The translations under genes were made by a program, and so were the position numbers. From NCBI RefSeq assembly GCF_014201145.1, contig NZ_JACHDP010000001.1, forward strand, positions 5,890,001-5,954,000: DNA of 64,000 bases, given 5' to 3'. The notes below the pieces were generated by a model. The model was given only the letters and a program-made list of their open reading frames with translations, did not search any database and was not told the DNA's origin. This document shows, one piece after another, positions 1 through 60,272 of the stretch (within the stretch, counting starts at the first letter, position 1; each line of letters starts with the position of its first letter). The stretch comes from Micromonospora parathelypteridis. GTDB taxonomy: Bacteria > Actinomycetota > Actinomycetes > Mycobacteriales > Micromonosporaceae.

Positions 1-1
1 C

Positions 2-31238: not shown

Positions 31239-32648
31239 CTAGGAACGCGCCTCCCAGGCCGGAACGGGCTCGTCCGGGTGGTCGCACATCCGCCGTACGC
31301 ACTCGTAGAAGTCGGCCCGCATCCGCGCCACGGTGGCGACGTCGAACACCGCCCCGCGGTATTCCCAGTAGCCGCCGAACCCGTTCGACGAGCGGACCAG
31401 AGACACCGACAGGTCCAGGGACGAGGTGCCGCGGAAGAGTTGGTCCTCGGTCACCTCGACCCCCGGCACCCGCAGCGGGGTCGGCTCCATTTCGTACACC
31501 TGGAACATCACCTGCACCATCGGCTGACGCCCCCGCACGCGACGCGGACGAAGGTCGGCGACGATGTGCTCCAGCGGCAGCTCCTGGTGCGCCATGGCGG
31601 CCAGACAGCGTTCCCGTACCCGGGCCAGCAGCTGGCGGAACGTGGGCCGGTCGGACAGGTCGACCCGGATGGGTACGGCGGTGATGAAGAATCCCACCAG
31701 CTCTTCCCATTCGGGTCGGGTCCGGCCGGCCGCCGGCGCGCCGATGACGAAATCGGACTGGCCACCGGCGCGGCCGATCGTCACGGCGAACGCGGCGAGG
31801 AATCCCATGAACCGCGTGACGCCGCAGGCCGCCGCCAGGTCCGCCAGGGCCCCGGCCACGTCGGCCGGGACCTCGTCGCGCAGGACCCCGCCGCGGAAGT
31901 CGGATTCGGCGTCCGGTTCGCGGTCGAACGGCAGGGCGATGGCGGGCGGTGCTCCGGTGAGCTCGCGCCGCCAGAACGCGCGGTCGCCGTCGAGCTCCGC
32001 GCCGGCGAGTCGGGTCCGTTGCCAGGCGGCGTACTCGGCGTACCGGTGGCGGGGAGCGGGCGGCGCCGCCGGCCCGGTGCCGCCGGCGTCGGCCAGCAGG
32101 GCCGACAGGTCGGCGCGCAGGATGTGCTCCGACCAACCGTCGATGATGATGTGGTGCGCGACGAGGGCGAGGACGTGGTCGTCCGGGCCGAGGTGGCACA
32201 GCAGCCACCGGATGCCCGGCTCCAGGTCCAGCCGGTACGGGCGGGCGTCGAGGTCGAGGGTGGCCCGGTGGGCCGCCGCCATCGGGTCGGTCTCGCCGGA
32301 CACGTCCACGACCGGCACCGTCACCGGAGCCGGCGGGATGACCCGCTGTACGGCGGTGCCGCCCTGTCGGCCGATGACGGTGCGCAGGATGTCGTGGCGA
32401 CGGTGCAGCTCGGTCAGCGCCCGGTCGAGGAGCGTTCGATCCAGCCGCCCTCGCAGCCGGAACACGTTGACCAGGCCACCTCCGCCGGTGCCACCCTGGA
32501 TCTGCGACATGATCCAGAGGCGCTCCTGGCCGAAGGACAACGGTGCATCGCCGACGACCGGCGCGACCGAGCGGGTCGCCATTCGGGCCCGTCGGTCGAG
32601 CAGGCGCTGCGTCGCCGGGCGCGGCGCGGCCGTGCCGTGCTCAGCCAT
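31239..32648 (-). CDS. Free-standing NRPS condensation domain
   Basis: A 469-residue protein consisting of one C domain. It begins LSFGQERLWIMSQIQGG, and the catalytic motif AHHIIIDGWS is complete. Later C-domain motifs are recognisable (GAPAAGRTRPEWEELVGFFI, HQELPLEHIVADL). No A, T or TE domain follows. The ATG overlaps the NRPS-2 stop by eight bases. It probably joins units carried on separate proteins, such as the T domain of NRPS-3 or NRPS-1, in a dissociated line. Amide- or ester-forming release is another possibility. Confidence 0.9.
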   Translation of the reverse strand: MAEHGTAAPRPATQRLLDRRARMATRSVAPVVGDAPLSFGQERLWIMSQIQGGTGGGGLVNVFRLRGRLDRTLLDRALTELHRRHDILRTVIGRQGGTAVQRVIPPAPVTVPVVDVSGETDPMAAAHRATLDLDARPYRLDLEPGIRWLLCHLGPDDHVLALVAHHIIIDGWSEHILRADLSALLADAGGTGPAAPPAPRHRYAEYAAWQRTRLAGAELDGDRAFWRRELTGAPPAIALPFDREPDAESDFRGGVLRDEVPADVAGALADLAAACGVTRFMGFLAAFAVTIGRAGGQSDFVIGAPAAGRTRPEWEELVGFFITAVPIRVDLSDRPTFRQLLARVRERCLAAMAHQELPLEHIVADLRPRRVRGRQPMVQVMFQVYEMEPTPLRVPGVEVTEDQLFRGTSSLDLSVSLVRSSNGFGGYWEYRGAVFDVATVARMRADFYECVRRMCDHPDEPVPAWEARS

Positions 32649-35600
32649 GCTCCTCCTCCCATCGCACCAGCGCCGCGGTGAAGTCGGCGAGAACGGGGTG
32701 TTCGAACAGCGTCCGAACCGGAAGGTCGACGCTGAACGCCTGCCGGACGTGACCGACGACCCGCGTCGCCGCCAGCGAGTGCCCACCCAGCGCGAAGAAG
32801 TCGTCGAATGCGCCGACCACGTCGAGCTTCAGCACCTCGCGCCAGATCTCGGCGCACGCCTCCTCCAGCTCGTCCCGCGGCGCCACCCGCTCTTGTGGGT
32901 CGACTGCGAGAAGGTCCGGCAGCCTGGCCCGGTCGAGTTTGCCGTTGGGCGTCTTGGGCAGCGCGGCGTCAATGCTCACCCTCGCCGGGACCATGTAGTC
33001 GGGCAGGGTGCGCGAGCAGTGTTCCCGCAGGGCGTCCTCGGTGACGACCGCGTCGGCCACGCCGACGTACGCCACGAGCCGTCCGTCGCGGGCGACGACC
33101 ACCACCTCGCGGACCGCGGGAAACGCGGCCAGGCAGCTCTCGACCTCCCCAAGTTCGATGCGGAACCCGCGGACCTTCACCTGGTGGTCCAGGCGACCGA
33201 GATACTCCAGTACGCCGTCCGAGCGCCATCGCACCAGGTCGCCGGTCCGGTACAGGCGGCCGCCCGGGCTGCCGCCGAAACCGTCGGGCAGGAAGCGCTC
33301 GGCGGTCAGCCCGGGCCGCCCGAGGTATCCGCGGGCCAGCACCTCGCCGCCGAGCAGCAGCTCACCCGGCACGCCAACCGGGGCGAGCGTGTGGCCGTCC
33401 TGGACGACGAACGCCCGGATACCGGGGAGTGGACGACCGATGGGCAGGCTCGCTCCCTGTTGGACGCCAGCCTCGACCCGGTAGCTGGTGGACACGATCG
33501 ACGCCTCGGTCGGGCCGTAGAGGTTGATGACCGTCCGGCTCGCCGCCCACTTCTCGGCCAGCGGGACGGGGCACGCCTCGCCGGCAACCATGATCGTCTC
33601 GGGGACGACCGACTCGTCGACGATCCCGGCCAGCGCCGACGGGGGCAGCAGGGCGGCGGTAGCCCGGGTGCCGCCCAGCATCCGCTCCAGGTCGGTGTGC
33701 GCCACCGCCTCGAGGTCGGGCAGGCAGAGCGACGCCCCGGCGCCGACGGCCATCAGGGCCTCCAGCACCGATGCGTCGAAGTTCGGCGACGCGAACTGCA
33801 GCATGCGGTCGGCCGGCGAGAACGGGACGGCGTGCCGTTGTCCCGCGCTGACCACCGCGAGGCCGCGATGTACCACGCCGACGCCCTTCGGTCGCCCCGT
33901 CGAGCCGGAGGTGTAGATGACGTACGCCAGCCCGTCCGGATGCAGGGCCCTGACCGGATTGGCGGGCGACGCGGCGGCCAGCTCGCTGCCGAGGTCGTCG
34001 AGGTCGACGGCGGTGCTGCCGGCGGGCACCCGGGCCGTCAGCGGTCCGCGGGTGAGGACCAGGGTCGGCCGGGCGTCGTCCACCATGTACTCGGTGCGGG
34101 GCGCCGGGTAGTTCGGATCCAGCGGAAGGTAGGCGCCACCGGCTTTGAGCACGCCGAGGGCGCCCAGCAGCACGTCCGCGCGGTCGTCGAAGAACAGCCC
34201 CACGACGGCTTCCGGGCCGACTCCGCGGGCCTGCAGCGCGTGGGCCAGCCGGTTCGCGTCGGCATTGAGCTCGGCGTAACTGGCCCGAACCCGGCCGCTG
34301 AGCGCCGGGAAGTCCGGGCGGCGTTCCGCGACCGCCTCGAACGCCGACGGCAGCGTCCAGCCGGCGTCGACCGGTCGGGCCGGGCTGGAGAACGCCGCGA
34401 TGGCGGCACGTTCCGGTGCGGTGACGATCTCGAACTCGGTGATCGGCCGGTCCGGCTCGGTGAGGGCCGCGTCCAGCAGTCGCACGTAGTGTCCGTGCAT
34501 CCGTTCGATCGTCGCGGCGTCCAACAGCCCGGCGTCGTAGTCCCAGTAGCAGTGGTACCCGTCGCGCTCCCGAGCGATCGTCAGCACCAGGTCCGCGCCG
34601 GCAATCCGGCTCGCGCTCGGCAGCGGCTCCAGCACGGCGTCCGGCAGGCTCAGCGGCTGCCGCTCCAGGTCCGCCAGTTGGAACATCACGTCGAAGAACG
34701 CCCGGCGTCCGTTGGCCCGGTCCGGCCGCACCGTCTCGACCACGGTGTCGAAGGGCACGTCCTGGTTGGTGTACGCGTCCAGGACGACCTCCCGGGACCG
34801 GCCGACCAGATCGCGCAGGCTCGGCCGGCCGGACAGGTCGGCCCGCAGCGCGACCGCGTTCGCGAAGAACCCGACCACCCGTTCGGTTTCCGGCTGGGTC
34901 CGTCCGGTGCACAGCGTCCCGACGAGCACCTCCTGGTGCTGGCCGTACCGGCCCAGCAGAGCGGCGTATCCGCTGAACAGCACAGTGAACAGCGACGCCC
35001 GAGCCGACCGTGCGGTGGCGTTGGCGGAGTCGACCAACCCGCCCTCCAGCATCGCCGCGAACCGGCGCATGTCCTGCCGCTCGCGGGCCGCGGTCCGCAA
35101 CGGTAGGGCCAGCCGCGGCGGGTCGGCGGGCAGACTGTCGCGCCAGTACGCCAGCTGCCCGGCGCACTCGGGCCCGGCCAGCCAGTCCCGCTGCCAGGCG
35201 GCGAAGTCGCCGTAGGTGTGTGCCGGGACAGGGTCCGTCGACGGCTCGCCGGCGTGCCAGCGGGCGTACGCCTGGGCCAGGTCCTCGTGCAGGACCTGCA
35301 CCGACCAGGGATCCGCGATGAGGTGGTCCATGGTGAGCAGCAGGGTGTGGTCGGCGGCGTCCGTGGTCAGCAGGACCGCCCGGTAGGTCTGACCGGTGGC
35401 CGGGTCGAAGCGGTTGTCCAGCTCCCGCTCGGCCCGTTCGGCGACGGCGCCGGCCGGGTCACCGAGCGGCGAGAGGTCAGCCACCTCCAACGGCACCCGG
35501 GCAGGCGGGTCGACCACGCAGGTGAGCCGGGCGCCGTCGACAACGAACCTGGTGCGCAACGCGTCGTGACGGGCCGCCACCTCGTCCAGGGCGCGCCGCA

Positions 35601-35835
35601 GGGCCTCCAGATCGAGGTGCCCACGTATGCGCAGGCCCATCTGAAGGTTGTAGGCGGGCGCCCCGTCGGCGAGCTGCTCGGCCACCCACATCCGCTCCTG
35701 GGCGTGCGACGCCGGCCGGGCCGGGACCTCGCGAGGCGCCGCCGACGGGGCGGTCGCGGTCGCATCGGATGGGGAAAGGTCTGCCACCGGCCCTCGAACG
35801 TACGAGCCGGTTGGCTGGAACTGAGAGATGGTCAT
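32641..35835 (-). CDS. NRPS-2: C-A-T
   Basis: A 1064-residue single module. The C domain starts near residue 38. Its catalytic motif reads DHLIADP (near 168) in place of HHxxxDG: the second His and the Asp remain, while the first His and the final Gly are changed. The A domain has YTSGSTGRPKG near 640 and ends PNGKLDR. The T domain has GGHSLAATR near 1015. The substrate pocket by eye is D-A-L-L-M-A-L-I-V, a hydrophobic pattern I cannot assign. The gene follows an array of hairpin repeats (35,887-36,103) and overlaps the free C-domain gene. Confidence 0.92.
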   Translation of the reverse strand: MTISQFQPTGSYVRGPVADLSPSDATATAPSAAPREVPARPASHAQERMWVAEQLADGAPAYNLQMGLRIRGHLDLEALRRALDEVAARHDALRTRFVVDGARLTCVVDPPARVPLEVADLSPLGDPAGAVAERAERELDNRFDPATGQTYRAVLLTTDAADHTLLLTMDHLIADPWSVQVLHEDLAQAYARWHAGEPSTDPVPAHTYGDFAAWQRDWLAGPECAGQLAYWRDSLPADPPRLALPLRTAARERQDMRRFAAMLEGGLVDSANATARSARASLFTVLFSGYAALLGRYGQHQEVLVGTLCTGRTQPETERVVGFFANAVALRADLSGRPSLRDLVGRSREVVLDAYTNQDVPFDTVVETVRPDRANGRRAFFDVMFQLADLERQPLSLPDAVLEPLPSASRIAGADLVLTIARERDGYHCYWDYDAGLLDAATIERMHGHYVRLLDAALTEPDRPITEFEIVTAPERAAIAAFSSPARPVDAGWTLPSAFEAVAERRPDFPALSGRVRASYAELNADANRLAHALQARGVGPEAVVGLFFDDRADVLLGALGVLKAGGAYLPLDPNYPAPRTEYMVDDARPTLVLTRGPLTARVPAGSTAVDLDDLGSELAAASPANPVRALHPDGLAYVIYTSGSTGRPKGVGVVHRGLAVVSAGQRHAVPFSPADRMLQFASPNFDASVLEALMAVGAGASLCLPDLEAVAHTDLERMLGGTRATAALLPPSALAGIVDESVVPETIMVAGEACPVPLAEKWAASRTVINLYGPTEASIVSTSYRVEAGVQQGASLPIGRPLPGIRAFVVQDGHTLAPVGVPGELLLGGEVLARGYLGRPGLTAERFLPDGFGGSPGGRLYRTGDLVRWRSDGVLEYLGRLDHQVKVRGFRIELGEVESCLAAFPAVREVVVVARDGRLVAYVGVADAVVTEDALREHCSRTLPDYMVPARVSIDAALPKTPNGKLDRARLPDLLAVDPQERVAPRDELEEACAEIWREVLKLDVVGAFDDFFALGGHSLAATRVVGHVRQAFSVDLPVRTLFEHPVLADFTAALVRWEEEHG

Positions 35836-36152: not shown

Positions 36153-37976
36153 TCAGGCCGCCGCGCTTGTCGCTCGCCGCTCGTCGACCAGCAGTGCGAG
36201 CTCGCGCAGCAGCGGCTGGTCGTAGATGTCACGTACGGTGATGGGCACCGCGAAGGCTTCCCGGACCCGCAGCGCCAAGCGGGTGGCCAGCAGCGAGTGC
36301 CCGCCAAGAACGAAGAAGTCGTCCTCCCGGGCGACCTCGTCGAGGCCGAGCAGGGCTTGCCAGAGGCCGGCAAGGTTCTTCTCGGTGGAGGAGGCGGGCC
36401 GGTCACCACCACCGGCGGCAGTGACCGGCGGCGCCGGCAGGGCCTGGCGGTCCAGCTTGCCCGAGTGGGTGAGCGGGAAGGCGTCCAGCCCCACGACGGC
36501 GGCCGGAACCATCGCCTCCGGTAGGACTCTCCTGAGGTGCTCCCGCAACGAGGTGACGTGCGGGCCGTCGGGCACGACGTACGAGACGAGCCGTAGCCCG
36601 TTGTCTTCGGCGAGCGCGACCGTGGCAGCGTCGGTGACCGCCGGATGGGCCCGGAGCTGGATGTCGATCTCCCCGAGCTCGATCCGGAAGCCGCGCAGCT
36701 TGACCTGGTCGTCGGCGCGCCCGACGAAGTCGTACACCCCGGCGACCCGTCGGGCGAGGTCCCCCGTGCGGTACAGCCGGCCGCCGGGGTCGGGCCCGAA
36801 CGGGTCCGGTCCGAAGCGCTCGGCGGTGAGCCCGGGCTGACCCAGGTAGCCGCGGGCGACGGCCGGCCCGCCGATGTAGACCTCGCCGACGACGCCGTCG
36901 GGTACCGGCCGGTGTTCCTCGTCGAGCAGATGCACCGTGCGATCGCCGATCGACCTCCCGATCGGGATCGCCGGCAGCGCCAGGTCGGCGGCCGTGATCT
37001 GGTGGGCAATGGCGAGGCAGGTGCACTCCACCGGACCGTAGACGTTCACGATCGTCAGATCGGGCTGGTTCGCGAGCACCTTGCCCAGGTGGTCGCGCGA
37101 GGCGACCTCGCCCCCGATGACCAGGCAGCGCAGCCCGGCGAGCAACCCGGGCCGTTCGGCCGCCACGGTGTTGAACGCCTGCGTCGGCAGCATCAACATG
37201 TCCGCCCCGGCCCGCTGGGCGGCGTCGGCGACGGCCAACGGGTCGCTGCCGTCGTCGCCCCGGTGGATGACGAGAGTTCCGCCGGTTGTCAGCACCGGGT
37301 AGACCTCAAAGACGTGGCCGTCCCAGGACATCGCCGAGTGGCACATCGCGCGCAGACCCGGACGCCACGGACCGTAGTCCTCATCGATGTAGAAGCCGGG
37401 GACGCTGCGGTGCGGCACCTCCACGCCCTTGGGCCGGCCGGTGGAGCCTGAGGTGTACGGGACGTAGAGCAGGTCGTCGCCGGTCACCTCCACCGGTGGG
37501 GGCACTGCCGACCCGACGGTGGCGTCCGGGTCGCGGAGCGAGTAGGTCAGCGTCGGGAGATCGGACAGCCCCCAGTCCAGTGGAGGCACCGTGAGGACGG
37601 CACGCACCCGGGCGTCCGCGGCCATGCGCCGCACGCGTTCCGCCGGCAGCCTCCCCTCGAGGGGAACGTAGGCCGCGCCGGCGCCGAGGATGCCCAGCAT
37701 CGCGACGATGGTGTCGGCGGAGTGCCCGGCCCGCAGGCCGACCAGGTCGCCGCGACCGATGCCGAGCGCCAGCAACCGCCGCGACAGCCGGGCGGCGTAC
37801 GCGGACAGTTGCCGGTAGCTCAGCTCCACCTTGCCGTCGACCACCGCCTTCAGGTCCGGGGTGCGGGCCGCCTGCGCGTGGAACAGGCCCGACACGGATG
37901 ATGTGTTGTCTGACATGCCACCAGGGTCGGCACCTGGTCTTTCACCGCGTTGTTGGCTGCCTATCGTCGGGCTCAT
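36153..37976 (-). CDS. NRPS-3: A-T didomain
   Basis: A 607-residue adenylation-thiolation protein. The A domain has YTSGSTGRPKG near residue 173, and T has GGHSLLATRL near 556. There is no C domain, so it loads an amino acid onto itself for hand-over to another protein. The pocket by eye is D-G-F-M-V-G-V-C-L, vaguely like branched-chain pockets but not assignable. The first ATG overlaps the xdhC stop (ATGA); another ATG at 37916 would drop 20 residues that look non-domain. Such A-T proteins commonly feed modules lacking an A domain, or make beta-modified amino acids. Confidence 0.9.
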   Translation of the reverse strand: MSPTIGSQQRGERPGADPGGMSDNTSSVSGLFHAQAARTPDLKAVVDGKVELSYRQLSAYAARLSRRLLALGIGRGDLVGLRAGHSADTIVAMLGILGAGAAYVPLEGRLPAERVRRMAADARVRAVLTVPPLDWGLSDLPTLTYSLRDPDATVGSAVPPPVEVTGDDLLYVPYTSGSTGRPKGVEVPHRSVPGFYIDEDYGPWRPGLRAMCHSAMSWDGHVFEVYPVLTTGGTLVIHRGDDGSDPLAVADAAQRAGADMLMLPTQAFNTVAAERPGLLAGLRCLVIGGEVASRDHLGKVLANQPDLTIVNVYGPVECTCLAIAHQITAADLALPAIPIGRSIGDRTVHLLDEEHRPVPDGVVGEVYIGGPAVARGYLGQPGLTAERFGPDPFGPDPGGRLYRTGDLARRVAGVYDFVGRADDQVKLRGFRIELGEIDIQLRAHPAVTDAATVALAEDNGLRLVSYVVPDGPHVTSLREHLRRVLPEAMVPAAVVGLDAFPLTHSGKLDRQALPAPPVTAAGGGDRPASSTEKNLAGLWQALLGLDEVAREDDFFVLGGHSLLATRLALRVREAFAVPITVRDIYDQPLLRELALLVDERRATSAAA

Positions 37977-39142
37977 CCGACGTGGGCGCCGGCCCGGGTA
38001 AGGGCCGGATGGTCTTGTGGATCTTGGTGAATCCGCCCCGTCCGCGAGGCCAGTCGCTCACCGCTGCCGTTCCACCGCCTCGCGATGATCTCCGCGGCGA
38101 TGCTCACCGCGGTCTCCTCCGGGGTCCGCGCCCCGAGGTCCAGCCCGATGGGGGAGGCCAACGTGCCCAACTCCGCCTCGCTCAGGCCAAGCTCACGCAA
38201 CCGGTCGAGGCGGTCGTCGTGGGTTCGACGCGACCCCATCGCCCCTACGTAGGCCAACGGCAGGCGCAGCGCCACATCCAGTACCGGCCCGTCGAACTTG
38301 GGGTCGTGGGTGAGGACGCACACCACCGTCCGCTCGTCCACCCGGCCGGCGTTCGCCTCGGCCTGCAAATACCGGTCGGGCCAGGCGACCACCACCTCAT
38401 GCGCCTCCGGAAAACGCCGCTCGGTGGCGAACACCGCCCGTGCGTCGCAGACGGTGACCCGGTAACCGAGGAATACGCCGATTCGTGCGACGGCCGCGGC
38501 GAAGTCGATGGCGCCGAACACGAGCATCCGGGGTGGCGCCTGATGCGACGCCACATACAGGGTCACCTCGTCGCGCCGGCGCTCGCCGTCGTAGCCGTAG
38601 TGAAGTAGACCGGTTCTGCCGGCGGCCAGCATTCCGCGTACGTCGGCGACGACGGCGGCGTCCAGCCGGGCGCTGCCCAGTGATCCGTCGGAATGGTCGG
38701 CGTAGACGATGAGCCGCCGCCCCGGGCTGCAGGCTGGATCCTCGCCGCTGGTGGCGACGCAGGTCACGACCGCGACTGCGATCCCATGCCGCACCGCGTA
38801 CGACACCGCCGCGAGCTGCGGAAAGGACTTCCGGTCCACCCGCTCCACGAACACGTCGAGGATCCCGCCGCAGGTCAGGCCGTCCGTAAAGGCGTCATAG
38901 TCGCTGACGCCGTACCGTTGCAGCACCGCCGTCCGGGACTCGATCACCTCCTGGGCCAACTCGTAGACCGCGCCCTCGACGCAGCCGCCCGCGACGCTGC
39001 CGACCGCCGTACCGTCCGCTGCGACCAGCATCGTCGCGCCCGCCGGCCGCGGCGCCGAGTGCCGCGTCGCCACCACGGTGGCCATTCCCACCGGGATCCC
39101 GTCGGCCCACCAGCGCTCCAGATCTTTCAACACCTCACGCAT
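37973..39142 (-). CDS. xdhC: XdhC/CoxI-type molybdenum cofactor insertion protein
   Basis: About 389 residues. The N-terminal XdhC domain contains VATRHSAPRPAGATMLV and GSVAGGCVEGAVYELA, with a conserved Cys. The C-terminal Rossmann-like domain contains RMLVFGAIDFAAAVARIG and LAYVGAMGSRRTHDDRL. XdhC proteins bind the molybdenum cofactor, promote its sulfuration and hand it to xanthine-dehydrogenase-type enzymes. The client is almost certainly the hydroxylase encoded at 21,628-25,339. Its coupling to NRPS-3 ties that hydroxylase to peptide synthesis. GGAAGGG precedes the ATG at 39142. Confidence 0.9.
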   Translation of the reverse strand: MREVLKDLERWWADGIPVGMATVVATRHSAPRPAGATMLVAADGTAVGSVAGGCVEGAVYELAQEVIESRTAVLQRYGVSDYDAFTDGLTCGGILDVFVERVDRKSFPQLAAVSYAVRHGIAVAVVTCVATSGEDPACSPGRRLIVYADHSDGSLGSARLDAAVVADVRGMLAAGRTGLLHYGYDGERRRDEVTLYVASHQAPPRMLVFGAIDFAAAVARIGVFLGYRVTVCDARAVFATERRFPEAHEVVVAWPDRYLQAEANAGRVDERTVVCVLTHDPKFDGPVLDVALRLPLAYVGAMGSRRTHDDRLDRLRELGLSEAELGTLASPIGLDLGARTPEETAVSIAAEIIARRWNGSGERLASRTGRIHQDPQDHPALTRAGAHVG

Positions 39143-39248
39143 TAGTGATCCCTTCCACCGATCGTCTCGCCTTTGCGGGGAATGTTGGCCGATGCGATTG
39201 CCAGGTCGGCCATTCTCATTTGGCGCGCGGACGAACTGCGACGCAGAA

Positions 39249-39273
39249 GAAGCCACCCGATACGGGTGGCTTC
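39249..39273. terminator. Hairpin terminator after the small repeat peptide gene
   Basis: Arms 39249-39259 (GAAGCCACCCG) and 39263-39273 pair perfectly over 11 bp around a 3-base loop, with T-rich flanks on both strands. It lies 29 bases after the minus-strand stop of the peptide gene, and before xdhC. Confidence 0.75.
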
Positions 39274-39301
39274 CTTTGTGCAAGCTTTGTCGGGGCGGTG
39301 G

Positions 39302-39421
39302 TCAGCCCCAGATCGTGTCGCCACGACGGCCCCAGATCGTGTCGCCTCGACGGCCCCAGATCGTGTCGCCTCGACGGCGGGAAGCGAAGTTGATGCCGTT
39401 GTCGCTGATGTTGTTCGACAT
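39302..39421 (-). CDS. 39-residue peptide with three RRGDTIWG repeats (AfsS-like position)
   Basis: A short gene read directly from the sequence. It has a 15-residue leader beginning MSNNISDNGINFAS, then three perfect tandem copies of RRGDTIWG, ending at Gly39. A strong ribosome site (AAAGGAG, spacing eight) precedes the ATG and a hairpin terminator follows. It lies directly downstream of, and on the same strand as, the AfsR-type gene, with its own upstream region holding three spaced heptamers. In Streptomyces coelicolor the small repeat protein AfsS is encoded directly downstream of afsR and is its target. The repeat sequence here differs from what I recall of AfsS. The alternative is a multi-core modified-peptide precursor, but no obvious modifying enzyme is adjacent. 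Confidence 0.75.
   Translation of the reverse strand: MSNNISDNGINFASRRRGDTIWGRRGDTIWGRRGDTIWG
39305..39376 (-). repeat. Three 24-bp tandem repeats inside the small peptide gene
   Basis: Three adjacent 24-base units encode RRGDTIWG each. They are identical except for one base (CGA versus CGT for an arginine in the last unit), which suggests recent amplification or strong constraint. Confidence 0.95.
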
Positions 39422-39489
39422 CTCGGATTCTCCTTTTGGGGGGCCATCTCTCGATGCCGAAAGGTTGTCCGAGCAGGCTTTTCTCGCCT

Positions 39490-39532
39490 CTACTGATCTC
39501 TATTGTTTCGCTACTGTCGACCTCGGCCGAGG
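39490..39532 (-). promoter_or_regulatory. Candidate AfsR/SARP operator and palindrome before the small peptide gene
   Basis: On the minus strand the heptamers ACAGTAG, ACAATAG and TCAGTAG start 11 and 10 bp apart (plus positions 39511-39517, 39500-39506, 39490-39496). They lie about 70-95 bases before the peptide start. A perfect 12-bp palindrome CCTCGGCCGAGG (39521-39532) adjoins them. The spacing matches SARP-type direct repeats; which regulator binds is inference. Confidence 0.5.
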
Positions 39533-39710: not shown

Positions 39711-42700
39711 CTACGTCCTGGCGGTCGCCTGCCCCGCCAGGTGCTCACCGGACGCAGCAGCCGGCGGATCGACCAGATCGGCGCGGGTCTGACCCGCGCC
39801 GTTCGACAGCGCGTCTCGGCCAGTCCCAGCGAGAGGAGGCACCGCCTCCAGCGCTGCCTGCTCGATGGTGCGGACCAGCGCTACGGCCCGCTCGTACCAG
39901 GTGTCGGCGTGCAGCCCGAGGAAGAGCTCCTGCGCGCGGAACGCTGCTCGCAGCGCCTGTTCGCGCTGGCCCCGATCCTGGTGGAACTCGGCGATGGTCA
40001 GACTGATGCGCGCCTCGATGAAGTCCTCGTTCAGCTGGGCCGCGAGCGCCGCCGCCGCGCTGAGCATGGCCTCCGCCTCCGCGTGGCGGCCCCGGCGCAG
40101 GGCCACGCTGGCCAGGCCGTGCTTGGCATGTGCCTCCCCGACCCGGTCCTGCAGCACCAGCACCAGATCCAGTGCGTCCTGGAACGCGCGCTCGGCCTCG
40201 TTCAGCTCGCTGAGGGTCAGGTGCAGGTCGCCAAGACGGCACAGCACCTGGGCGTGTACGCGGCGAGCGTTGGCTCTCTCGGCCGCCGCGAGGGCCAGCT
40301 TCAGGTCATGGGCGGCCGCCTCGCGGTCACCAGCCTCCAGATGGAGCTGGGCGATGTTGCTCATCACGTGCGCCTCGGCGACGTGGTCGCCAGCGTCACG
40401 TAGCCGGCCCAGCGCGTCCTCGAAGCCCCGCATCGCGGCATCGGCCTTCCCGGTGATCCGGTCGAGGAAGGCCAGCATGCGCAACGCGAGGGCGTAGCCA
40501 TGGTCCTCTCCGATATCACCGAACAGCTGCGTGGCCTCGGTAAGCAGCGGTCGCGCGTCGTCATGGCGTTGCTCGAACAGGGCCAAGGAACCGAGGGAGC
40601 TCAGCATCGCCGCCCGCCCGCGTCGGTTGCCGCTGCGAGCGGTGACCTCCAGCGCCAGCTCGTGGGTCGTACGCCAGTCGCCGAAATAGCGCCGGTTCTC
40701 GAACAGCGTGACCGATGCCAGGGCAAGGTCCCAGCACGCGTCGTCCAGACCCATCTCGGCCGCGAGGCGTACCGCCGCGAGCAGGCCAAGGCGCTCGGTG
40801 TCGTACCAGGCCAGCGAGTCGGCGATCACCTTGTCCAGGACGGACTCGGCCAGCCGCCAACGCGGTGCCTCTCCGTGGATGACGGTGTGGTCGCCGCCGT
40901 ACTCGGCCCGGTGGGCGCGTTCGGCCAGGAACAGCCAGGCGCCCACGAGCCGGCGCGCCGTTGCCAGCCGCTCGGCCTCGGTCTCACCGGCCTCCAACTG
41001 CTCGCGGGCGTACGCCCGGACCAGGTCGTGCAGCCTGAAACGGGCCCGGCTCCCACGGCCGTGTTCCACCTCGACCAGGCGCGCCTCGACCAACTCGTCG
41101 AGCAGATCACCGGCGGTCATCGGGTCGCAGTCCATCAGCGGCGCGCAGATCCAGCCACCGAAGTCAGCCGAGCTGGCCTGGCTGAGCAGCCGGAACAGGC
41201 GCTGTGCCGGCGGGCTCAGTGCCCGGTAGGACAGCGCAAGGTTGGCGCGAACGTCCAGCCCGCCGTGCGCCAACTCGCTCAGCCGTCGACGCTCGTCGGA
41301 CAGCCGATCCACGAGATCGCTCACCGCCCAGTGCGGACGGGCGACCAGGCGGGCGCCGGCGACCCGCAGCGCCAGCGGAAGGCCACCGCAGAACCGGACC
41401 AGCGAGATGGCGGCACTTTCCTCGGCGTGGATGCGGTCTCGACCGAGCATCTTGCCCAGCAGCTCAAGTGCGTGATCGAGGCCCAACACGTCCACTTCGA
41501 CCGGGTACGCCCCGGACAGCCCACTGAGGCGGTGCCGGCTGGTGAGGATCACGGCGCATCCAGCGGTGGCCGGCAGGATGGGCCGCACCTGGTTCTCGTC
41601 CGAGCAGTTGTCGAGCACGACGAGGATTCGCCGGTCGGCCACGCAGGTACGAAACATCTCCGCGCGCTCGTCGAGCTGCTCCGGCAGGTTGATGGCGAGC
41701 ACTCCCATCGCCCGCAGGAAACGGCCGATCACGTCCGCAGGTGCCGCGGGCTCGGCGTTGACGCCGTGCATGTTGGCGTACAGCTGCCCGTCGGGGAAGG
41801 CGTCGGAGAGTGCGTGGGCCACATGCGTGGCGAGACTCGTCTTGCCCACGCCGCCACGGCCGGAGATCGCCACCATCGGAACGCCGGTGGCGCTGGCATC
41901 GGAGAGCAGTCGCTCGCGCATCGCTTCGATGAGCCCGGCGTGTCCGGTCATGTCGGACTGGGCGATCGGCAACATCCGCGGCACCTGTACGGGGCCGCTG
42001 CGCGGACCGCCGCCGATGCCGGTGCCGATCCGCAGGTCGGGATCGTCGCTGAGGATGCCCTTCTCCATCAGGCGTAGCTGCTCGCCTGGCTCCAGGCCCA
42101 GGTCGTCGATGAGGATGCGGCGGCCGTCGCGGTAGACCTCCAACGCGTCGGCGCGACGGTCACAGCGAAAGAGCGCCAGCATCAACTGCGCGCGGAGCCG
42201 CTCGCGCAGCGGGTACCGCTCGACGAGGTCGACCAGTTCGCCCACGGTCTCCTGGTGCTGGTGCAGCCGCATGCGTAGGTCGATGTACTCCTCGATCGCG
42301 GCGATCCGGCGTTCGAGCAGCGAGGCCGCGGCCGCCTGCAGGATCGGGCTGGGAATCCCGGCGAATGGCTCGCCGTGCCAGAGCGACAGTGCTTCGGCGA
42401 AGGACTGTGCGGCGTCGGTCAGCCTCCCGCCGCTGGCTGCCTTCCTTCCGGCGGCGACGGCGCGCTCGAACATCAGCAGGTCGAGCTTGGTGGGATCGAC
42501 CTCTATCTGGTAGCCCGGCTGTTTGGTGTGGATGGTCGCGTCGATGCCGTGCATCGCCAGGGTGCTGCGCAGACTCGACACGCAGATCTGGATCTGGCCT
42601 CGGGCGGTGGTTGGCGGCTTGTCCGGCCACACCGTGTCGATCAACCGTTCGACCGAGACGATCCTGCTGCTCTCCAGCAGGAGGGTGGACAAGACGATGC

Positions 42701-42776
42701 TTTGCCGCGCCGCGGTCAGTGAGACGGGCCCAGTGACGCCGATGAGCTCAAGCGGACCCAGTATGCGAAACCACAC
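39711..42776 (-). CDS. AfsR-type pathway regulator (wHTH-BTAD-NB-ARC-TPR)
   Basis: A complete 1021-residue regulator. The winged-helix OmpR-like DNA-binding domain (about 1-95) begins FRILGPLELIG, and the BTAD activation domain covers about 98-245. The NB-ARC ATPase has P-loop ISGRGGVGKTSLATH near 305, Walker B RRILVVLDN near 380 and GLPLALRV near 467. TPR repeats fill about 650-1000. It is the same architecture as AfsR, whose ATPase and TPR parts modulate DNA binding. The GTG start follows GGGGGCAAC. Lying inside the cluster, it is the natural candidate to activate it, acting at the spaced heptamer repeats before the mbtH genes and the small repeat peptide. Confidence 0.92.
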   Translation of the reverse strand: MWFRILGPLELIGVTGPVSLTAARQSIVLSTLLLESSRIVSVERLIDTVWPDKPPTTARGQIQICVSSLRSTLAMHGIDATIHTKQPGYQIEVDPTKLDLLMFERAVAAGRKAASGGRLTDAAQSFAEALSLWHGEPFAGIPSPILQAAAASLLERRIAAIEEYIDLRMRLHQHQETVGELVDLVERYPLRERLRAQLMLALFRCDRRADALEVYRDGRRILIDDLGLEPGEQLRLMEKGILSDDPDLRIGTGIGGGPRSGPVQVPRMLPIAQSDMTGHAGLIEAMRERLLSDASATGVPMVAISGRGGVGKTSLATHVAHALSDAFPDGQLYANMHGVNAEPAAPADVIGRFLRAMGVLAINLPEQLDERAEMFRTCVADRRILVVLDNCSDENQVRPILPATAGCAVILTSRHRLSGLSGAYPVEVDVLGLDHALELLGKMLGRDRIHAEESAAISLVRFCGGLPLALRVAGARLVARPHWAVSDLVDRLSDERRRLSELAHGGLDVRANLALSYRALSPPAQRLFRLLSQASSADFGGWICAPLMDCDPMTAGDLLDELVEARLVEVEHGRGSRARFRLHDLVRAYAREQLEAGETEAERLATARRLVGAWLFLAERAHRAEYGGDHTVIHGEAPRWRLAESVLDKVIADSLAWYDTERLGLLAAVRLAAEMGLDDACWDLALASVTLFENRRYFGDWRTTHELALEVTARSGNRRGRAAMLSSLGSLALFEQRHDDARPLLTEATQLFGDIGEDHGYALALRMLAFLDRITGKADAAMRGFEDALGRLRDAGDHVAEAHVMSNIAQLHLEAGDREAAAHDLKLALAAAERANARRVHAQVLCRLGDLHLTLSELNEAERAFQDALDLVLVLQDRVGEAHAKHGLASVALRRGRHAEAEAMLSAAAALAAQLNEDFIEARISLTIAEFHQDRGQREQALRAAFRAQELFLGLHADTWYERAVALVRTIEQAALEAVPPLAGTGRDALSNGAGQTRADLVDPPAAASGEHLAGQATART

Positions 42777-44421: not shown

Positions 44422-44443
44422 GGTCTCGTCCTCTCGTCGGCGG

Positions 44444-45601: not shown

Positions 45602-46893
45602 GAACCCTCCTTGTCGGCTGTCACTTCGGCGACGGGTACATCCAGGCCACCGACCCAGGCGCGCGCGGCCACTTCGAGCAGCGCGGCCACCGGGCCGCGG
45701 CGATTCGCGAGCCGGCTCATCGGCGCCAGTACGGTGGCGTCCGGCCGAGCCGCCCGTAGGGGGTGCTGGTTGGCCAGCGAGGTGAGCATCTGCCCCGGTC
45801 CCGTCTCGATGGCGAGGACGCCGGGCAACTCCCACAGCCGCGTCAGGTTGTCGAAGAAGCGCACCGTCTGGCACATGTGGCGGGACCAGTACGTCGGGTC
45901 GGTCACCTCGGCCGGCGCGATCCAGTCCCCGGTCACGTTGGACACGATCGGAATGCGCGGTGGCCGCAGGTCGACGGCCGACAGCGCGTCTCGTAGGGGT
46001 CTGTCGAGCGGGGCCATCATCGAGGAGTGGAAGGCGTGCCGGGTGGACAGGTTCATCGTCACCACGGCCTGGCTGGCGAGCTTCGAGCCCAGTGCCGCGA
46101 GCTGCGCGGTCGGCCCGGACACGACGCACAACCGGGCCGCGTTGACGGCGGCTAGGCAGACCTCGTCCCCCAGGTACGGTGCCAGTTCGTCCTCGGCCAG
46201 CAGAACCAGCATCATCGCGCCCGGCGGCAGTCCGTCGATGAGGTGGGCCCGCTGGGCCACCAGGCGCAGCGCGTCGGGCAACGGTAGGACCTCCGCGACC
46301 GCCGCGGCGGTGTACTCGCCGATGCTGTAGCCGACCAGGGCCCCGGGTTCCACGCCCCAGGCCCGCAGCTGGGCGGCGAGGGCGTACTCCACCGCGAAGA
46401 CGGCCGGTTGGGCCAGCCGCGTCTCGTCCAGCGGGTCGGGGCCGCCGCGGATCACGGCGTCCGAGTCGTCCGCCGACGGTGCCAGCAGGTGCTCGCGCAG
46501 ATCGCTGCCGATCAGCGGTATCAGCTGCTCCGCGCAGTCGTCCAACACCGCGCGGAACGTCCCCAGCCACTGGTACGCCTCACGGGCGACTCCGGTGCGT
46601 TGCTCTCCCACGCCGGGGAAGAGGAATACCGGGAGGGGTGACCCCGCCTCACCCGGATGGACCTCGCTTCGGAAGACGAGGCGGGGATCCGGCTCGCGCA
46701 GGAGTGCGGCGGCCTCCGCGGCGTCGCGAGCGATCACGGCGAGACGGTGGCGGTCGTGGCCGGGCTCGGGCAGGAGAGCACCCTCGGCCAGGGCCGCGGC
46801 CGTCTGGGTGGCGAGCCGGTCGAGGTGGTCCGACGACGGCGCGCTCAGCGCGTACATCTTCCAGGACTGCGTCTGCACGGTCGGGGCGGTCAT
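45586..46893 (-). CDS. Free-standing acyltransferase (PKS AT-like, trans-acting)
   Basis: 435 residues: a PKS-like AT domain with a short N-terminal linker (WKMYALSAPSSDHLDRLA). The nucleophile motif is GYSIGEY (about residue 190) instead of GHSxG. The His region is LSTRHAFHSSMMAPL (about 285). No ketosynthase is present in the window, so it is unlikely to load a polyketide extender in the ordinary way. VinK- and ZmaF-like ATs move aminoacyl or aminomalonyl groups between carrier proteins. It is co-translated with NRPS-4 (ATGA overlap), which has two modules lacking A domains, so it may load them. Confidence 0.85.
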   Translation of the reverse strand: MTAPTVQTQSWKMYALSAPSSDHLDRLATQTAAALAEGALLPEPGHDRHRLAVIARDAAEAAALLREPDPRLVFRSEVHPGEAGSPLPVFLFPGVGEQRTGVAREAYQWLGTFRAVLDDCAEQLIPLIGSDLREHLLAPSADDSDAVIRGGPDPLDETRLAQPAVFAVEYALAAQLRAWGVEPGALVGYSIGEYTAAAVAEVLPLPDALRLVAQRAHLIDGLPPGAMMLVLLAEDELAPYLGDEVCLAAVNAARLCVVSGPTAQLAALGSKLASQAVVTMNLSTRHAFHSSMMAPLDRPLRDALSAVDLRPPRIPIVSNVTGDWIAPAEVTDPTYWSRHMCQTVRFFDNLTRLWELPGVLAIETGPGQMLTSLANQHPLRAARPDATVLAPMSRLANRRGPVAALLEVAARAWVGGLDVPVAEVTADKEGSWTSH

Positions 46894-49800
46894 AGTGACT
46901 CCTGGGTGGTGAGCGCGCCGTCCCGGCTGACCGGCAGGTCGATGCCGAGTTCCGCCATGAGGTCGGTGACGAAGTCCAGCTGACCGGCCCGGTTGGCCAG
47001 GATGACCGCGCCGGCGCCGCCCGTGCCCGCCAGGGTCAGTGCCTGATAGCCCGGCCCGTCCCCGGCGTGGCCGAACCAGCCGCTGCCGGTGGCGATGCTG
47101 CCGAGGCCGTAGGAGACGGATGGCAGCGGCTGGGTCATCGTCGCGGCTTCGTCCGGACCCAGCAGGACCGCGGGCTCGCCGCGCAGTGCCCGTAGGACGT
47201 CGCAGGCGAGCTTGGCAAGGTCAGTCGCGGTGGTCCACAGCCCGCTCGCGGCTCCGTCGGTCACCACGTGCCAGCCACCGGGCAGGTGACCGCCGTCGTC
47301 GGTGTGTCCCAGGGCGACCCGCCCGGCGCGGCGCAACGGGAACGACTGGTCGTAGCTGCTGTTGGTCATGCCCATCGGGGTGAACACGACGCGGTCCATC
47401 AGCACGGCGAACGGCTCGCCGGTGACCTCCGCGAGAATCTGCTGGATCACGCCGAAGTTCGCGCACGAGTAGCGGAACTCCCCGGCAGGCCCCTCCCGGC
47501 GCACCGCTGGATTGGTGGCTGGCGGCGAGCCGTGCAGGATGTCCAGCAGGGACGGCGACGCCGCGGTGCGGGCCACCCCCAGGTTGGTCAGCCGGGTCAG
47601 ACCCGAGGTGTGACTGAGCAACTGGCGCAGGGTGATCGGGTGTCCGTCGCCGTCGTCCGGCGGCTGCCACCGCGACAGATAGTCGCGTGCGTCGACGTCG
47701 AGGTCCAGCAGTCCGTCCCGGACCAGGCGCAGGACCCCGAGCGCTGTCACGTGCTTGCTGACCGAGCAGACCTGGAACACCGTCTCGGGTCCCGCGACCA
47801 CGGTTCCACCGGCCTTCGTCACGCCGGCGGTCCACGCCTGGGCGACCTCGCCGTTCTCGATGAGGGCGATGCTCGCGGCGGGAACCCGGTGGCGGGCCAT
47901 CGCAGACCGCACCGCCTGTTCCCGGTCGTCGGGCAGCGAGCCGGACGCGGCCGGGCGGGACACTGCCTGGCGGGACTCGGCGGGGCTCGGCGCGTCGGTG
48001 CCGGCCTCCGGATCGTCGGCGTCGACGGCCGCCAGCACCTTGGTGAACGTCCGGAGCCGCAGGATCTGCTGGACGGTGATGGGGATCTGCGCGCGCCGGG
48101 CCGCCCCGGCCACCTGGAACGCGAGGATGGAGTCTCCGCCGACGTGGAAGAAGTTCTCGTCCGGGTCGACGTCCGGCATCTGCAGTACGGCGTCCCAGAT
48201 GTCCTTGAGCACCCTGGCCCGCCCGGTGAAGGCGGCTCCGGCCTCGGAGTGCGGCGCTTCCTCCGGCGACTCGACCGGTGCGACCGTGGGCACCGGCTCG
48301 GGCAGCACGGCGCCGAGGACCGTGTCGCCGCCGTTTCCGGCGAGCAGCTCCAGCAGCTCCGTGAGCCGGTCAAGCAGGCGCTCGATGGTGGTCGGACGGT
48401 AGACCGAGCGGTTGTACTTCAGCCCGACCCGCAGGCCGCCGTCGAAGTCGGCGGAGAGGGTGAGGTCGCGCCCCGTCTCGCCCACCTCGACGTCCAGGGG
48501 GGACACCGACAGGTCGGTGGTCAACTCGCCCGAGGCGATGTTGAAGTTGCGGAAGACGAACAGCGAGGTGAACGGCGTACCGCGGGACATGCCGATGGCC
48601 TTACGCACGTCTCCGAGGGCGGTGGCGACGCGGTCGTGCAGCGCCAACTGCTCTTCCTGCGTGTGGCGCAGCCACGGTCCCAGCTGCGCCGCGCGGTCGA
48701 TCCGCAGCCTGGTCGGCAGGATGTTCATGAACATGCCGACCATCTGCTCCACACCGCTGACCGGGGCGTTGCGCCCGGCCAGCGTGGTGCCGAACACCGC
48801 GTCGCGGCCGCCGTCGTGCTCGCTCAGCAGCAGACCCCAGGCACAATGCAGCAGCGTGTGTAGGGTGACCCGCTCACGGCGAGCCGCCACCTGAAGGCGG
48901 GTCAGCAGCTCGTCGGGGAGGGTGCGAGTCTGGCTGGCGGAGCCCGCCGACCCGGCGACCGGCTCGGCCAGCGGCAGCGACGACGGCGCCGGCAGCCCGG
49001 CGAACATGTCGCGCCAGAACTCGCCGTCGTCCGCGGTCGTCGTCTGTGGTGTGCGCAGCCAGCGGACGTATCCCTCGACCGGGACGCTGCCCGCCGGCAG
49101 CGGCCGGCCCTCGCGTAGCGCCCGGTACGCCGACGACACCTCGGCGAAGACGAGGTTGAAGCTGTACCCGTCCATCACGACGTGATGGGTGCTCCACACG
49201 AAGCGGTGGGACCGCTCCCCGGTGCGAATGAGGAAGAACCGCGACGGCGGGTGCTGGTCGAGGCCGGCGCCGTGGTCGAGCTCGCGGGCCAGCAGCCGGT
49301 CGATCCAGGCCGCCCGGGCCGGTGCCGGCACGTGCGTGCAGTCGTGCCGCTCCAGGACGACCTCGTGTCGCCGGAGCACGACCTGCACCGGCCGGGGCAG
49401 GCCGTCGCTGAGGTAGCGCGTTCGCAGGGCCGGGTGCCGGTCGGTGGCGTGCTGCCACGCCCGGCGCAGCAGGTCCGCGTCGAGCGGGCCGTCGATGTCG
49501 GAGGCGTAGGTGCGCTGGTAGATGTCCCGTTCAGCCGCGAGGTGCTCGAACAGCATGCTCACCTGCAGCGGCGCGAGCGCGTAGACGCCCTCAACCTCGT
49601 CGGCGGGCAGCGTGGCCATCAGGTCGGCCAGGCTCGCCTCGTCCAGGCCGCTCAGGCCCGTCGAGTCGGCCGATGCCGCACCAGCAGGGCCGAGACCGGC
49701 GGATGGTGCCGGGTCGGCGGTCGGGGTCGGCGGATCCGTGCCGTCCGGTTCCGGCATCGCCGCAAGCTGGGCGACCGTCGGGTGACTGAACAGGTCAGTC

Positions 49801-52800
49801 GGCCGGCGGATGAGGCCGATGTCACGGGCGCGGGCGACGATCTGCATGGCGCGAATGGAGTCACCGCCGAGTTCGATGAAATCGTCCCCGATCCCGATCT
49901 CGACCAGGTGGAGCACCTCTGCCCAGATCTCGGCCAGCCGGCGCTCGAGCGGTGTGCGCGCGCCGGTGACCCGTACGGCGCTGGGCGAGGCCAGCTTCTC
50001 GGGTTCGGTGTCGGCCAGCAGGCCGTCGAGGATCTCGACGTACTCGTCGAGCAGACTCTCCGCGGCGGACACCCGGGCACGGTCGTAGTTGATCCGCAAT
50101 GTCAGCTCCTCATGCAGGCTCGCGCCGAGGACGACCGGGTAGCCGGTCTGCCGGATCGCCCTGTCGACGTGGACATCCAGCTCCGGTGGTCGCTGTCCGG
50201 CCGGCGCGTCGAAGTTTTCGTAGACGAAGATCGTTTCGAACAGCGGGCGGCCGCCCGCGTGGCCCGCCGCTCGCTGGATGTCGGCGAGGGCGAGGTGGCC
50301 GTGGCCGTTCGCCGCGGCCTGGTTGGCCTGCGACATCTGCAGCCAATGGCCCAGGCTGCCGGCGGCGACTCGGACGCGGTTCGGCACAGTGCTCATCAGC
50401 AGGCCGACGATGCGCTCGATTCCGGGTACGTCGGCGTCGCGGCCGGCGATCAGCGTGCCGAACATGACCTCGGCATCGCCGGTCTCGCGGGCCAACAGCA
50501 GCGCCCAGGCGGCCTGGAGCACGGTGCCGACCGTCACGCGATGCCGGCGGGCCAGCGCCCGGATGTCCTCGACGCGCTGACGGTCGAGGACCGCCGTCAC
50601 CTCGGCCGCGCTGGCCTCGGCCCGCGTCGCGGCAGGGCGGACGAAGGGCAGGTCGGTGGGTGTGGCGCCGAGCAGGCGCTCGCGCCAGAACGCCATGCTG
50701 GCGTCGGTGTCCTGCGCCCACAGCCAGCGGATGTAGTCCCCGAATGGCACCGGCTCGGGCAGCTGCGGACCTACCCTGCCCGTCCGCGCGTGGTAGGCGA
50801 GGAGAATCTCGTTCACCAGCACGGGCATGCTCCACCCGTCGAGCAGCAGGTGATGGAAGGACCACACCAACAGGTGAGCGGCCGGGCCCGTGCGGATCAA
50901 CCGGCACCGGTGCGGCGGCCTCAGGTCCAGCGCGAAGCCCTGCTCGCGGTCGGCGGCCAGTAGGCGAGCCAGCTCGGCGTCGCACTCGGCGGCCGTCCGG
51001 TGCGACCAGTCCAGGTAGTCCCAGTCGAGTTCGGCTACGGGCGCGACGACCTGGACCGGGTGCGGCAGTTCGCGCCAGGCGAAGGTGGTACGCAGGACGG
51101 GGTGGCGGTCGACGCCGTGCTGCCAGGCGTACCGGAGGTCGTCGGGGCGCAGGTCGCCGTCGATGCCGATGACGAACTGCTCGACATTCGCGGCGCGCTC
51201 CGGCTCGGCCAGGGTCTGGAACAACATGCCGGCCTGCAGCGGCGACAGCCGGTAGAGGTCGGCGATGCCGGCCGGCCGGATCTGGGTGAGGAGCTTGCGC
51301 TGTGCCACCGGCGGGAGGTCCGCCGATCGCAGCATCGCCGCGAGCCCGGGCTGGGCCGTGTCGCCGCCGGGCCGTGCCGCGACCGGCGATGTCGTACTGC
51401 CGGCCACCGCCTCGGCCAACTCGGCGATGCTCTGATGGCCGAACAGCAGCGCCGGAGTCACCGCCAGCCCGGCGTCGCGGGCCTGGCGGGCCACGCGTAC
51501 CGACAGCAGCGAGTCCCCGCCGAGGTCGAAGAAGTTGGCGTGGATGCCGATCCGGGGTACGCCGAGCACGGTCTGCCAGATCTCGGTGAGCGTCTGCTCG
51601 GCGGGCGTGCGGGGGGCCGCGATCTGGTCGGCATCGGGCAGTGCCGGTTCGGGCAGGGCGCCCCGGTCGACCTTCCCGCCGGCGGTGAGCGGCATCTGGT
51701 CGAGCACGGTCACCACCGACGGCACCATGTAGTCCGGCAACCCGGCCGCGACGAACCGTTTGACCCCGTCGGGCGCGACCGCCGCACGGGCGGCTCCGAC
51801 GACGTACGCCGCCAGCCGCTGATGGCCACCGGCCTCGCGGCAGACGACCACCGCCTCGGTGACCTCCGGGTGGGCCAGCAGACGTGCTTCGACCTCGGCC
51901 AGTTCCACCCGGTACCCCCGGATCTTGACCTGGTGGTCGATCCGCCCGAGGAAGTCGATGTTGCCGTCGAGGCGGAACCTGGCGAGGTCGCCGGTGCGGT
52001 ACATCCGGGCACCGGGCAGCGGGTCGTACGGGTCGGGCACGAACCGCTCGGCGGTCAGCGCCGGGCGGCCGGCGTAGCCACGGGCCACCCCGACACCGCC
52101 GATGTACAGCTCGCCCACGACCCCGGGCGGGGCCAGCCGCCCCTGGGCGTCCAGGACGTACATCCGCAGGTTGGCGATCGGCCGGCCGATCGAGATCGGC
52201 GACGCCGGGTCGAAATCATCGCCGATCTCGTAGACGGAGCAACCGACGACCGTCTCGGTGGGGCCGTACTCGTTGATGATCCGGCCCTGCGGGGCGATCT
52301 CGCGCCAGGCCGCGACGGTCTCCGGACGGACCTCGTCGGCCCCCACGACGTAGGTGCGCACCGAGTTCACCCGGGAACCGGCCGGCGTGAGGTGGCGCAG
52401 CGCGTCGAGGTGGCCCGGGGTGATCTTCAGGAGGCTGAAGTCGCCGTCGCGCTGGATCAGGTCAGCCAGCGCCTGGACCTGGTCTGTCTCCGGCAGGAGC
52501 GTGACATCCCGGCCGCTGATCAGCGGGAGCAGGAAGTTGGGTACGGACAGGTCGAAGGCGATCGAGCCCACCATCGGTGCCCCGGACGTGCCCTGGACGC
52601 CGTAGCCGTCGATCGACCAGAGTAGATAGTTCGCGACGCCGCGGTGGGTGACCAGCACTCCCTTGGGGCGGCCGGTCGAGCCCGAGGTGTACATGATGTA
52701 GATCAAGTTGTTCGGGGTGTTGACCGCCTCGGGGTCGGTCTCGGCGTACCCCGAAAGGTCCTCGGTGGGCACACAGATCCGCTCGCCGTCGAAGTCCGCG

Positions 52801-59195: not shown

Positions 59196-60268
<1,073 letters not shown>

Positions 60269-60272
<4 letters not shown>

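Follow-up and report, generated by a model that had tools for sequence, protein, structure and literature searches.

A tandem-repeat peptide gene beside an AfsR-type regulator of Micromonospora parathelypteridis: a candidate peptide ligand of a large SARP

Large SARPs regulate antibiotic clusters (PMC10972967). Downstream of one of them, AfsR, is placed AfsS (PMC10972967), a protein of 63 residues whose three 12-residue repeats are thought to be crucial for its activity (PMC2267785). Whether the sensor domain of AfsR binds an inducer is still elusive according to the 2024 paper on the AfsR structure (PMC10936776). In this work, we consider a 64,000-nucleotide stretch of the Micromonospora parathelypteridis genome, which is a single 7.0-Mb contig (NZ_JACHDP010000001.1, positions 5,890,001 to 5,954,000; hereafter the window). 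Here a gene for a 39-residue peptide with three identical 8-residue repeats lies downstream of an AfsR-type regulator on the same strand, with 289 nt between the regulator stop and the peptide start (Table 1). We propose, with moderate confidence, that this peptide serves the adjacent large SARP as its cognate ligand protein, and that its three linear motifs (core GDTIWG) are read by the TPR sensor of the regulator.

Signals of Actinobacteria are typically small molecules according to PMC10075063, and the titles and abstract openings of the open literature, a scope that leaves subscription papers and preprints aside, gave us no account of large SARPs with peptide ligands. A near precedent is NosP, the nosiheptide SARP, for which a title cited in PMC10972967 states a response to peptidyl ligands derived from a precursor peptide; there, however, the ligand comes from the antibiotic's own precursor, that of a ribosomally synthesized and post-translationally modified peptide (RiPP), whereas here a dedicated motif gene lies beside a nonribosomal peptide synthetase (NRPS) cluster. 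The STAND protein MalT has maltotriose and ATP as its activators (PMC10936776), whereas a ribosomally made motif is proposed here. In the RRNPP systems (Rap, NprR, PlcR, Rgg), as in the window, a small peptide gene lies beside a TPR receptor; some of the sister peptides described below are 1-2 kb off, and most of those downstream of regulators have a signal-like N-terminus. The window receptor differs in having 1021 residues, with NB-ARC and SARP domains, rather than 250-500, and the window peptide differs in its tandem motifs, its lack of a signal-like stretch and its actinobacterial host. Of the RRNPP signature given in PMC10075063, the adjacent propeptide gene is thus present, but the receptor length and, in the window, secretion are not. 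The proposed system would work like RRNPP; it looks like AfsS and belongs to neither as defined.

The regulator has the make-up of a large SARP, that is, BTAD, NB-ARC and TPR domains in about 1000 residues, and matches the PDB entries 8k60 and 8jke. Against the AfsR model it scores 567 bits, with a cut-off of 1430, which makes it a relative and not an orthologue of AfsR. In a fold comparison, its predicted TPR sensor fits the Rap-pheromone and NprR-NprX structures. Among solved TPR-only sequences, Pins/LGN and kinesin light chain 2 come nearest to the sensor; both are eukaryotic adaptors and not transcription factors, and we claim no homology of ligands. Kinesin light chain binds Trp-acidic peptides.

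The peptide was first noticed in a reading of the sequence alone (hereafter the original prediction), and its translation agrees with that reading: a 15-residue leader MSNNISDNGINFASR is followed by (RRGDTIWG)x3, without any hydrophobic, signal-like stretch (the highest 14-residue hydropathy is -0.34). At the DNA level the repeat has a period of 24 bp; two copies are identical, and the third carries one base change that yields a synonymous Arg codon. The strong ribosome site, the palindrome and the three upstream heptamers, spaced 11 and 10 bp, are present as described, the heptamer triplet being only modestly unusual (its score is equalled by 13 of 1000 dinucleotide shuffles when spacings of 10-12 are searched). 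The claim that the gene has its own terminator held in part: a strong hairpin follows the stop codon, but it has no clean T-run, and a scan for consensus terminators scored none there. An overlapping open reading frame (ORF) of 101 residues in another frame (39142-39447, minus strand) likewise covers the repeat; we prefer the 39-residue frame because of its ribosome site and because GDTIWG resembles the peptides found beside related regulators.

The original prediction had suggested an AfsS-like regulatory peptide. In both cases a large SARP is followed by a small leaderless tandem-repeat protein on the same strand, with SARP-type direct repeats upstream. On the other hand, the window peptide has 39 residues in 8-residue units rather than 63 in 12-residue units (PMC2267785 for AfsS), its neighbor is not an AfsR orthologue, and its core is GDTIWG, whereas that of AfsS is mostly D/N-x-HA[TS], without Trp. 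Among 30 Streptomyces AfsR-orthologue loci, the best-scoring ones of 61 genomes, 28 have leaderless tandem-repeat ORFs of the AfsS type, 19 with the D/N-x-HA[TS] core and nine with variants (core variants include DNHAP, NNAMP and NTHIT); the copies largely agree inside one protein and differ among genomes (DMHAT, DQHAT, DNHAS, DAHAT, DLHAT). Repeats resembling the afs box lie upstream at all four AfsR loci examined. The suggestion stands as to anatomy, position, strand and SARP-like boxes, but not as to repeat core or regulator. AfsS and the window peptide share architecture and position; since AfsS lacks Trp, we claim no common descent. At one locus (L195, Streptomyces tanashiensis) a secreted-looking ORF of 53 residues ending in DNMHAT accompanies AfsS. 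Secreted companions with the AfsS core occur at this one of 50 loci (L195-L244, paralogues included), and we do not lean on them.

Searches for the 39-residue peptide itself returned little. Among 5.8 billion clustered proteins there were four candidates, none related except the peptide itself, whose cluster entry has one member sequence and two contigs; restriction to one species is not proven. In its own genome and 60 relatives, eight genomes had a match, but the seven besides its own only at unconvincing E values of 0.025-0.084. An exact two-copy GDTIW pattern occurs in one of 394 genomes, its own. Pfam and NCBIfam have no family for this peptide or for ten sister or AfsS-type peptides, the single match (P0001 to SafA, E 0.57) being far under the cut-off.

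The arrangement of peptide gene and regulator, in contrast to the exact repeat, recurs. The scan covered the flanks of related regulators within the genus and those of 80 named loci, which rank highest among at least 574 obtained by searching GTDB species genomes with an alignment of the regulator; the same search with the single regulator as query had found nothing. Many of these regulators are adjoined by a short ORF with a ribosome site and a Trp motif that is terminal or repeated, such as DTNWG, ETIWG, NTIWG, DTPWE, NTPWG, DTHW, NNPWD, SQPWG, DNWPWT, ETGWG, NDWEWH and DDPWT. Hosts include Streptomyces, Lentzea, Actinokineospora, Nocardiopsis, Sphaerisporangium, Rhizocola and Dactylosporangium. 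Usually the ORF is convergent, and the two stops lie no more than about 250 nt apart; in some clades it lies upstream, is divergent or is 1-2.5 kb away. The original prediction had set homologous arrangements beside AfsR-type genes as its test, and comparable ORFs do exist there, with the motif conserved as protein within clades. Regulators with such a neighbor are called tagged below.

Several counts bear on whether the pairing exceeds chance. ORFs whose last three residues include W, and which have a hydrophobic N-terminus and a stop from -60 to +300 of the regulator stop, occur at 20 of 76 named loci (four of the 80 were dropped for short flanks) against 11 of 1097 control windows from the same loci (odds ratio 35, p 6e-18). 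Without the hydrophobicity rule the counts are 22 of 76 and 34 of 1097, and 20 of the 22 look secreted, as judged by hydropathy alone. For a stricter class, ORFs ending in D/N-T-x(1-2)-W, the genus set gives 13 of 55 loci, where 20 shuffles average 0.05 and reach 1 at most, and the named set gives 14 of 73 (mean 0.15, maximum 1). It should be noted that the D/N-T-x-W motif was first noticed in the genus set and that the pattern was later widened after viewing the named loci. In a loose class, comprising any W-terminal ORF, the counts are 40 of 55 (shuffled 11.45, maximum 16) and 35 of 73 (15.1, maximum 23). Both classes leave out the locus of the window itself and 22 loci that are duplicates or overlap. 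Since the loose class is frequent in shuffles, single loose tags can be chance. The 11 other BTAD loci of the window's own genome gave no strict and four loose ORFs (shuffled 2.95); the pairing thus belongs to one part of the large-SARP family and not to SARPs generally.

The most telling sister peptides are very short. Three Micromonospora loci (L095-L097) have a divergent 8-residue ORF, MSRDTNWG, 0.9-1.4 kb upstream, and Rhizocola hellebori (L117) has MGQDTNWG about 0.3 kb upstream of its regulator; a single RRGDTIWG unit has the length and shape of such an entire ORF. The regulators concerned are the closest to the window regulator (46-48% identity). By eye, a ribosome site precedes and an inverted repeat directly follows each 8-residue ORF, and at L095-L097 an exact pair of TCGACAG, 22 bp apart, lies upstream. 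Some tagged peptides carry two to six copies of the motif, and there are secreted-looking precursors with DDPWT x4 (L163), SNPWN x4 (L150), DTHW x3 (L126) and DTPW x6 (L122). In the NPWD group (nine sequences), a hydrophobic N-terminus ending in AxA is followed by a variable middle and a fixed end, a layout such as secreted propeptides have. With one peptide of this group as query, 101 genomes of the genus yielded 10 matches, eight of them Trp-tag peptides. Six of these lie beside a regulator; the other two have none within several kb and are about 44 kb from L042 and L044, regulators of the NPWD clade that have no neighboring peptide. Separately, at L109-L111, in a more distant clade of large SARPs, same-strand ORFs of 18 residues ending in NDWEWH end 91 nt past the regulator stop.

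The type of motif follows the regulator. When 131 regulators (74 tagged, 57 untagged) are placed on a tree, their eight label classes can be accounted for by 29 changes; shuffled labels require 67.7, and 0 of 200 shuffles are as low. The tree was built without duplicates and, by choice, without L061, L062, L063, L064, L068, L070, L071, L184 and L194; labels came from regular-expression matches and by eye, with variants lumped (NTIWD, NTVWE and DSNWG as DTxWG, DMHW as THW). A hand-picked IQ-TREE subset of 39 (38 tagged or window) gave 10 changes against 23.1. Since related rows share labels by descent, this result denotes a stable pairing and not many independent events. The regulators nearest to that of the window pair with DTNWG or ETIWG peptides: in both trees its five nearest rows carry DTxWG labels, and an xPW row takes the fifth place once L016 is removed. 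FastTree stars the four-row clade to which the window belongs (95, flagged for long branches), whereas the quick IQ-TREE run does not. Some genomes hold several pairs with differing motifs, for example G544 with DTPWE (L025), ETGWG (L076) and DTHW (L077), as separate channels would.

The 57 untagged regulators, which have no such neighbor, count against the proposal; among them L083, the only untagged one of the nearest nine, was searched for a DTxWG peptide and none was found, and the genus flank scan gave no match at L069, L073 and L074. Three regulator ORFs without a tagged peptide are short, with part of the sensor missing (L083, 837 residues; L094, 809; L112, 837). At L064 a DTSW followed by a stop was discarded as a chance occurrence, for it lies inside the regulator coding region without a start or ribosome site.

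The tiny Trp-motif genes beside many related regulators suggest a signaling role for the peptides, with the regulators as their readers. The anatomy of the gene, the recurrent pairing and the match of motif to clade are computed results, as is the predicted TPR fold. In the proposed mechanism, the regulator would bind the direct repeats upstream of the peptide gene and turn it on. The whole peptide might act as such, in which case its three joined motifs could link up several copies of the receptor, an oligomerizing STAND protein; alternatively, it might be cleaved at the Arg-Arg sites into GDTIWG pieces. Either form would occupy the groove of the TPR sensor, relieve autoinhibition and drive the NRPS cluster, so that the pair would close a feedback loop on the cluster. 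At sister loci with the motif at the C-terminus of a secreted-looking precursor, the peptide may be a pheromone acting between cells. We infer, then, that the gene is expressed and autoregulated, and that its product is processed and binds the receptor, with activation as the direction of effect.

The best-surviving alternative, which we consider unlikely, is that the peptide is a downstream effector like AfsS: the regulator activates the gene, and the product acts on another target, such as RNA polymerase or another regulator. The position, strand and leaderless tandem architecture are as for afsS, SARP-like repeats precede the gene as afs-box-like repeats precede afsS, and the published account of AfsS, with its repeats thought crucial (PMC2267785) and its place downstream of AfsR (PMC10972967), agrees with such a role. 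It leaves unexplained, however, the secreted look of most sisters, the 8-residue ORFs and a motif that follows the regulator clade, and these three features, absent from the original prediction, point to a ligand that acts on its receptor and not just to an effector further down. One peptide could fill both roles.

The original prediction had also raised a multi-core RiPP precursor modified by an enzyme encoded elsewhere, which we now regard as improbable. A short leader, repeated cores and a Trp in each core would suit it, the regulator has a sub-threshold match to the cyclophane-RiPP TPR protein HaaT (279.9 of 1125 bits), and the title cited for NosP describes a RiPP precursor as the source of SARP ligands (PMC10972967). 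Yet in a survey of 4-kb flanks at 35 of the 80 named loci and the window, no gene family, and hence no enzyme family, recurs in more than five of the 36 tagged neighborhoods, except a SARP-like regulator in nine; moreover, W is the last or next-to-last residue in many relatives, and the motif follows the regulator. An unlinked enzyme would escape a survey of these flanks. The nine-locus family (L122, L129, L153, L160, L163, L172, L181, L186 and L187) is called SARP-like from its N-terminal letters, not from a domain search, and a second such regulator beside a tagged pair possibly denotes two-regulator circuits. Slightly less probable still is that the peptide has an antimicrobial, immunity or toxin-like role and accompanies cluster regulators only incidentally. 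Short secreted peptides of biosynthetic clusters could be bioactive, but the recurrent partner here is a regulator, in varying orientation and position, a killer role is unlikely for 8-residue ORFs, and the same survey, made without domain searches for exporters or immunity genes, gives no other family in more than five neighborhoods. Least probable of all is a DNA repeat or chance ORF without product, which the nearly identical DNA units and the lack of relatives of the 39-residue peptide would allow but which the in-frame likeness to related motifs, the ribosome site, the hairpin, the enrichment and the coupling to clades speak against.

The cluster around the pair also holds two MbtH domains, a phosphopantetheinyl transferase, a thioesterase and an MFS transporter. 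An ORF of 435 residues (43228-44535, minus strand) has a sub-threshold match to class-II tRNA synthetases (20.7 of 29.3 bits) and, together with the NRPS bearing a C-terminal beta-lactamase-fold domain, possibly indicates unusual cluster chemistry. Near the cluster, an ORF at 59196-61661 (minus strand) has a beta-eliminating lyase domain. A second AfsR-type regulator (L067, BTAD match) occupies 1-2323 (plus strand) and starts before the window; the flank scans found no D/N-T-x-W peptide beside it.

Table 1. Coordinates of the peptide gene, its signals and neighboring genes, counted from the first letter of the window
Feature	Position	Strand	Basis
Gene of the 39-residue peptide	39302..39421	-	ORF translation MSNNISDNGINFASRRRGDTIWGRRGDTIWGRRGDTIWG
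Repeat unit 1 (RRGDTIWG)	39353..39376	-	DNA repeat and translation
Repeat unit 2 (RRGDTIWG)	39329..39352	-	DNA repeat and translation
Repeat unit 3 (RRGDTIWG), then stop codon	39305..39328	-	DNA repeat and translation
Ribosome-binding site AAAAGGAG	39430..39437	-	8 nt ahead of ATG
Hairpin past stop codon, possible transcript end	39244..39278	-	-28.6 kcal/mol, z -4.1
Three SARP-like heptamers: CAGTAGC (39510-39516), CAATAGA (39499-39505), CAGTAGA (39489-39495)	39489..39516	-
12-bp palindrome CCTCGGCCGAGG	39521..39532	.	present upstream of peptide gene
Large-SARP/AfsR-type regulator, 1021 residues (BTAD, NB-ARC, TPR), proposed receptor	39711..42776	-	domain search
TPR sensor, residues 678-978, proposed motif-binding site	39843..40745	-	AlphaFold2 helix pairs, mean pLDDT 89.8
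XdhC-like gene, next downstream (ATG at 39142 inferred; longest ORF starts at 39283)	37973..39142	-	domain search
NRPS adenylation-carrier protein	36153..37976	-	domain search
NRPS condensation-adenylation-carrier protein	32641..35835	-	domain search
NRPS with C-terminal beta-lactamase-fold domain	46890..54626	-	domain search

More broadly, and with confidence that falls somewhat short of even, we suggest that large SARPs of Actinobacteria may be peptide receptors, each clade reading its own motif (D/N-T-x-W, x-P-W, W-P-W, or D-x-HAT for AfsR) delivered as a pheromone by a secreted, often multi-copy precursor or an 8-residue gene, or else by a leaderless tandem protein such as AfsS or the window peptide. 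This would be a phylum-wide form of signaling that controls antibiotic clusters, with AfsS as its best-known but misread member. If this is true, the signals of large SARPs could be read from the genome, synthesized and added, which would make the inducer question directly testable and perhaps offer a route to awakening silent clusters. It would also give a molecular explanation for AfsS and add encoded peptides to a phylum of mainly small-molecule signals.
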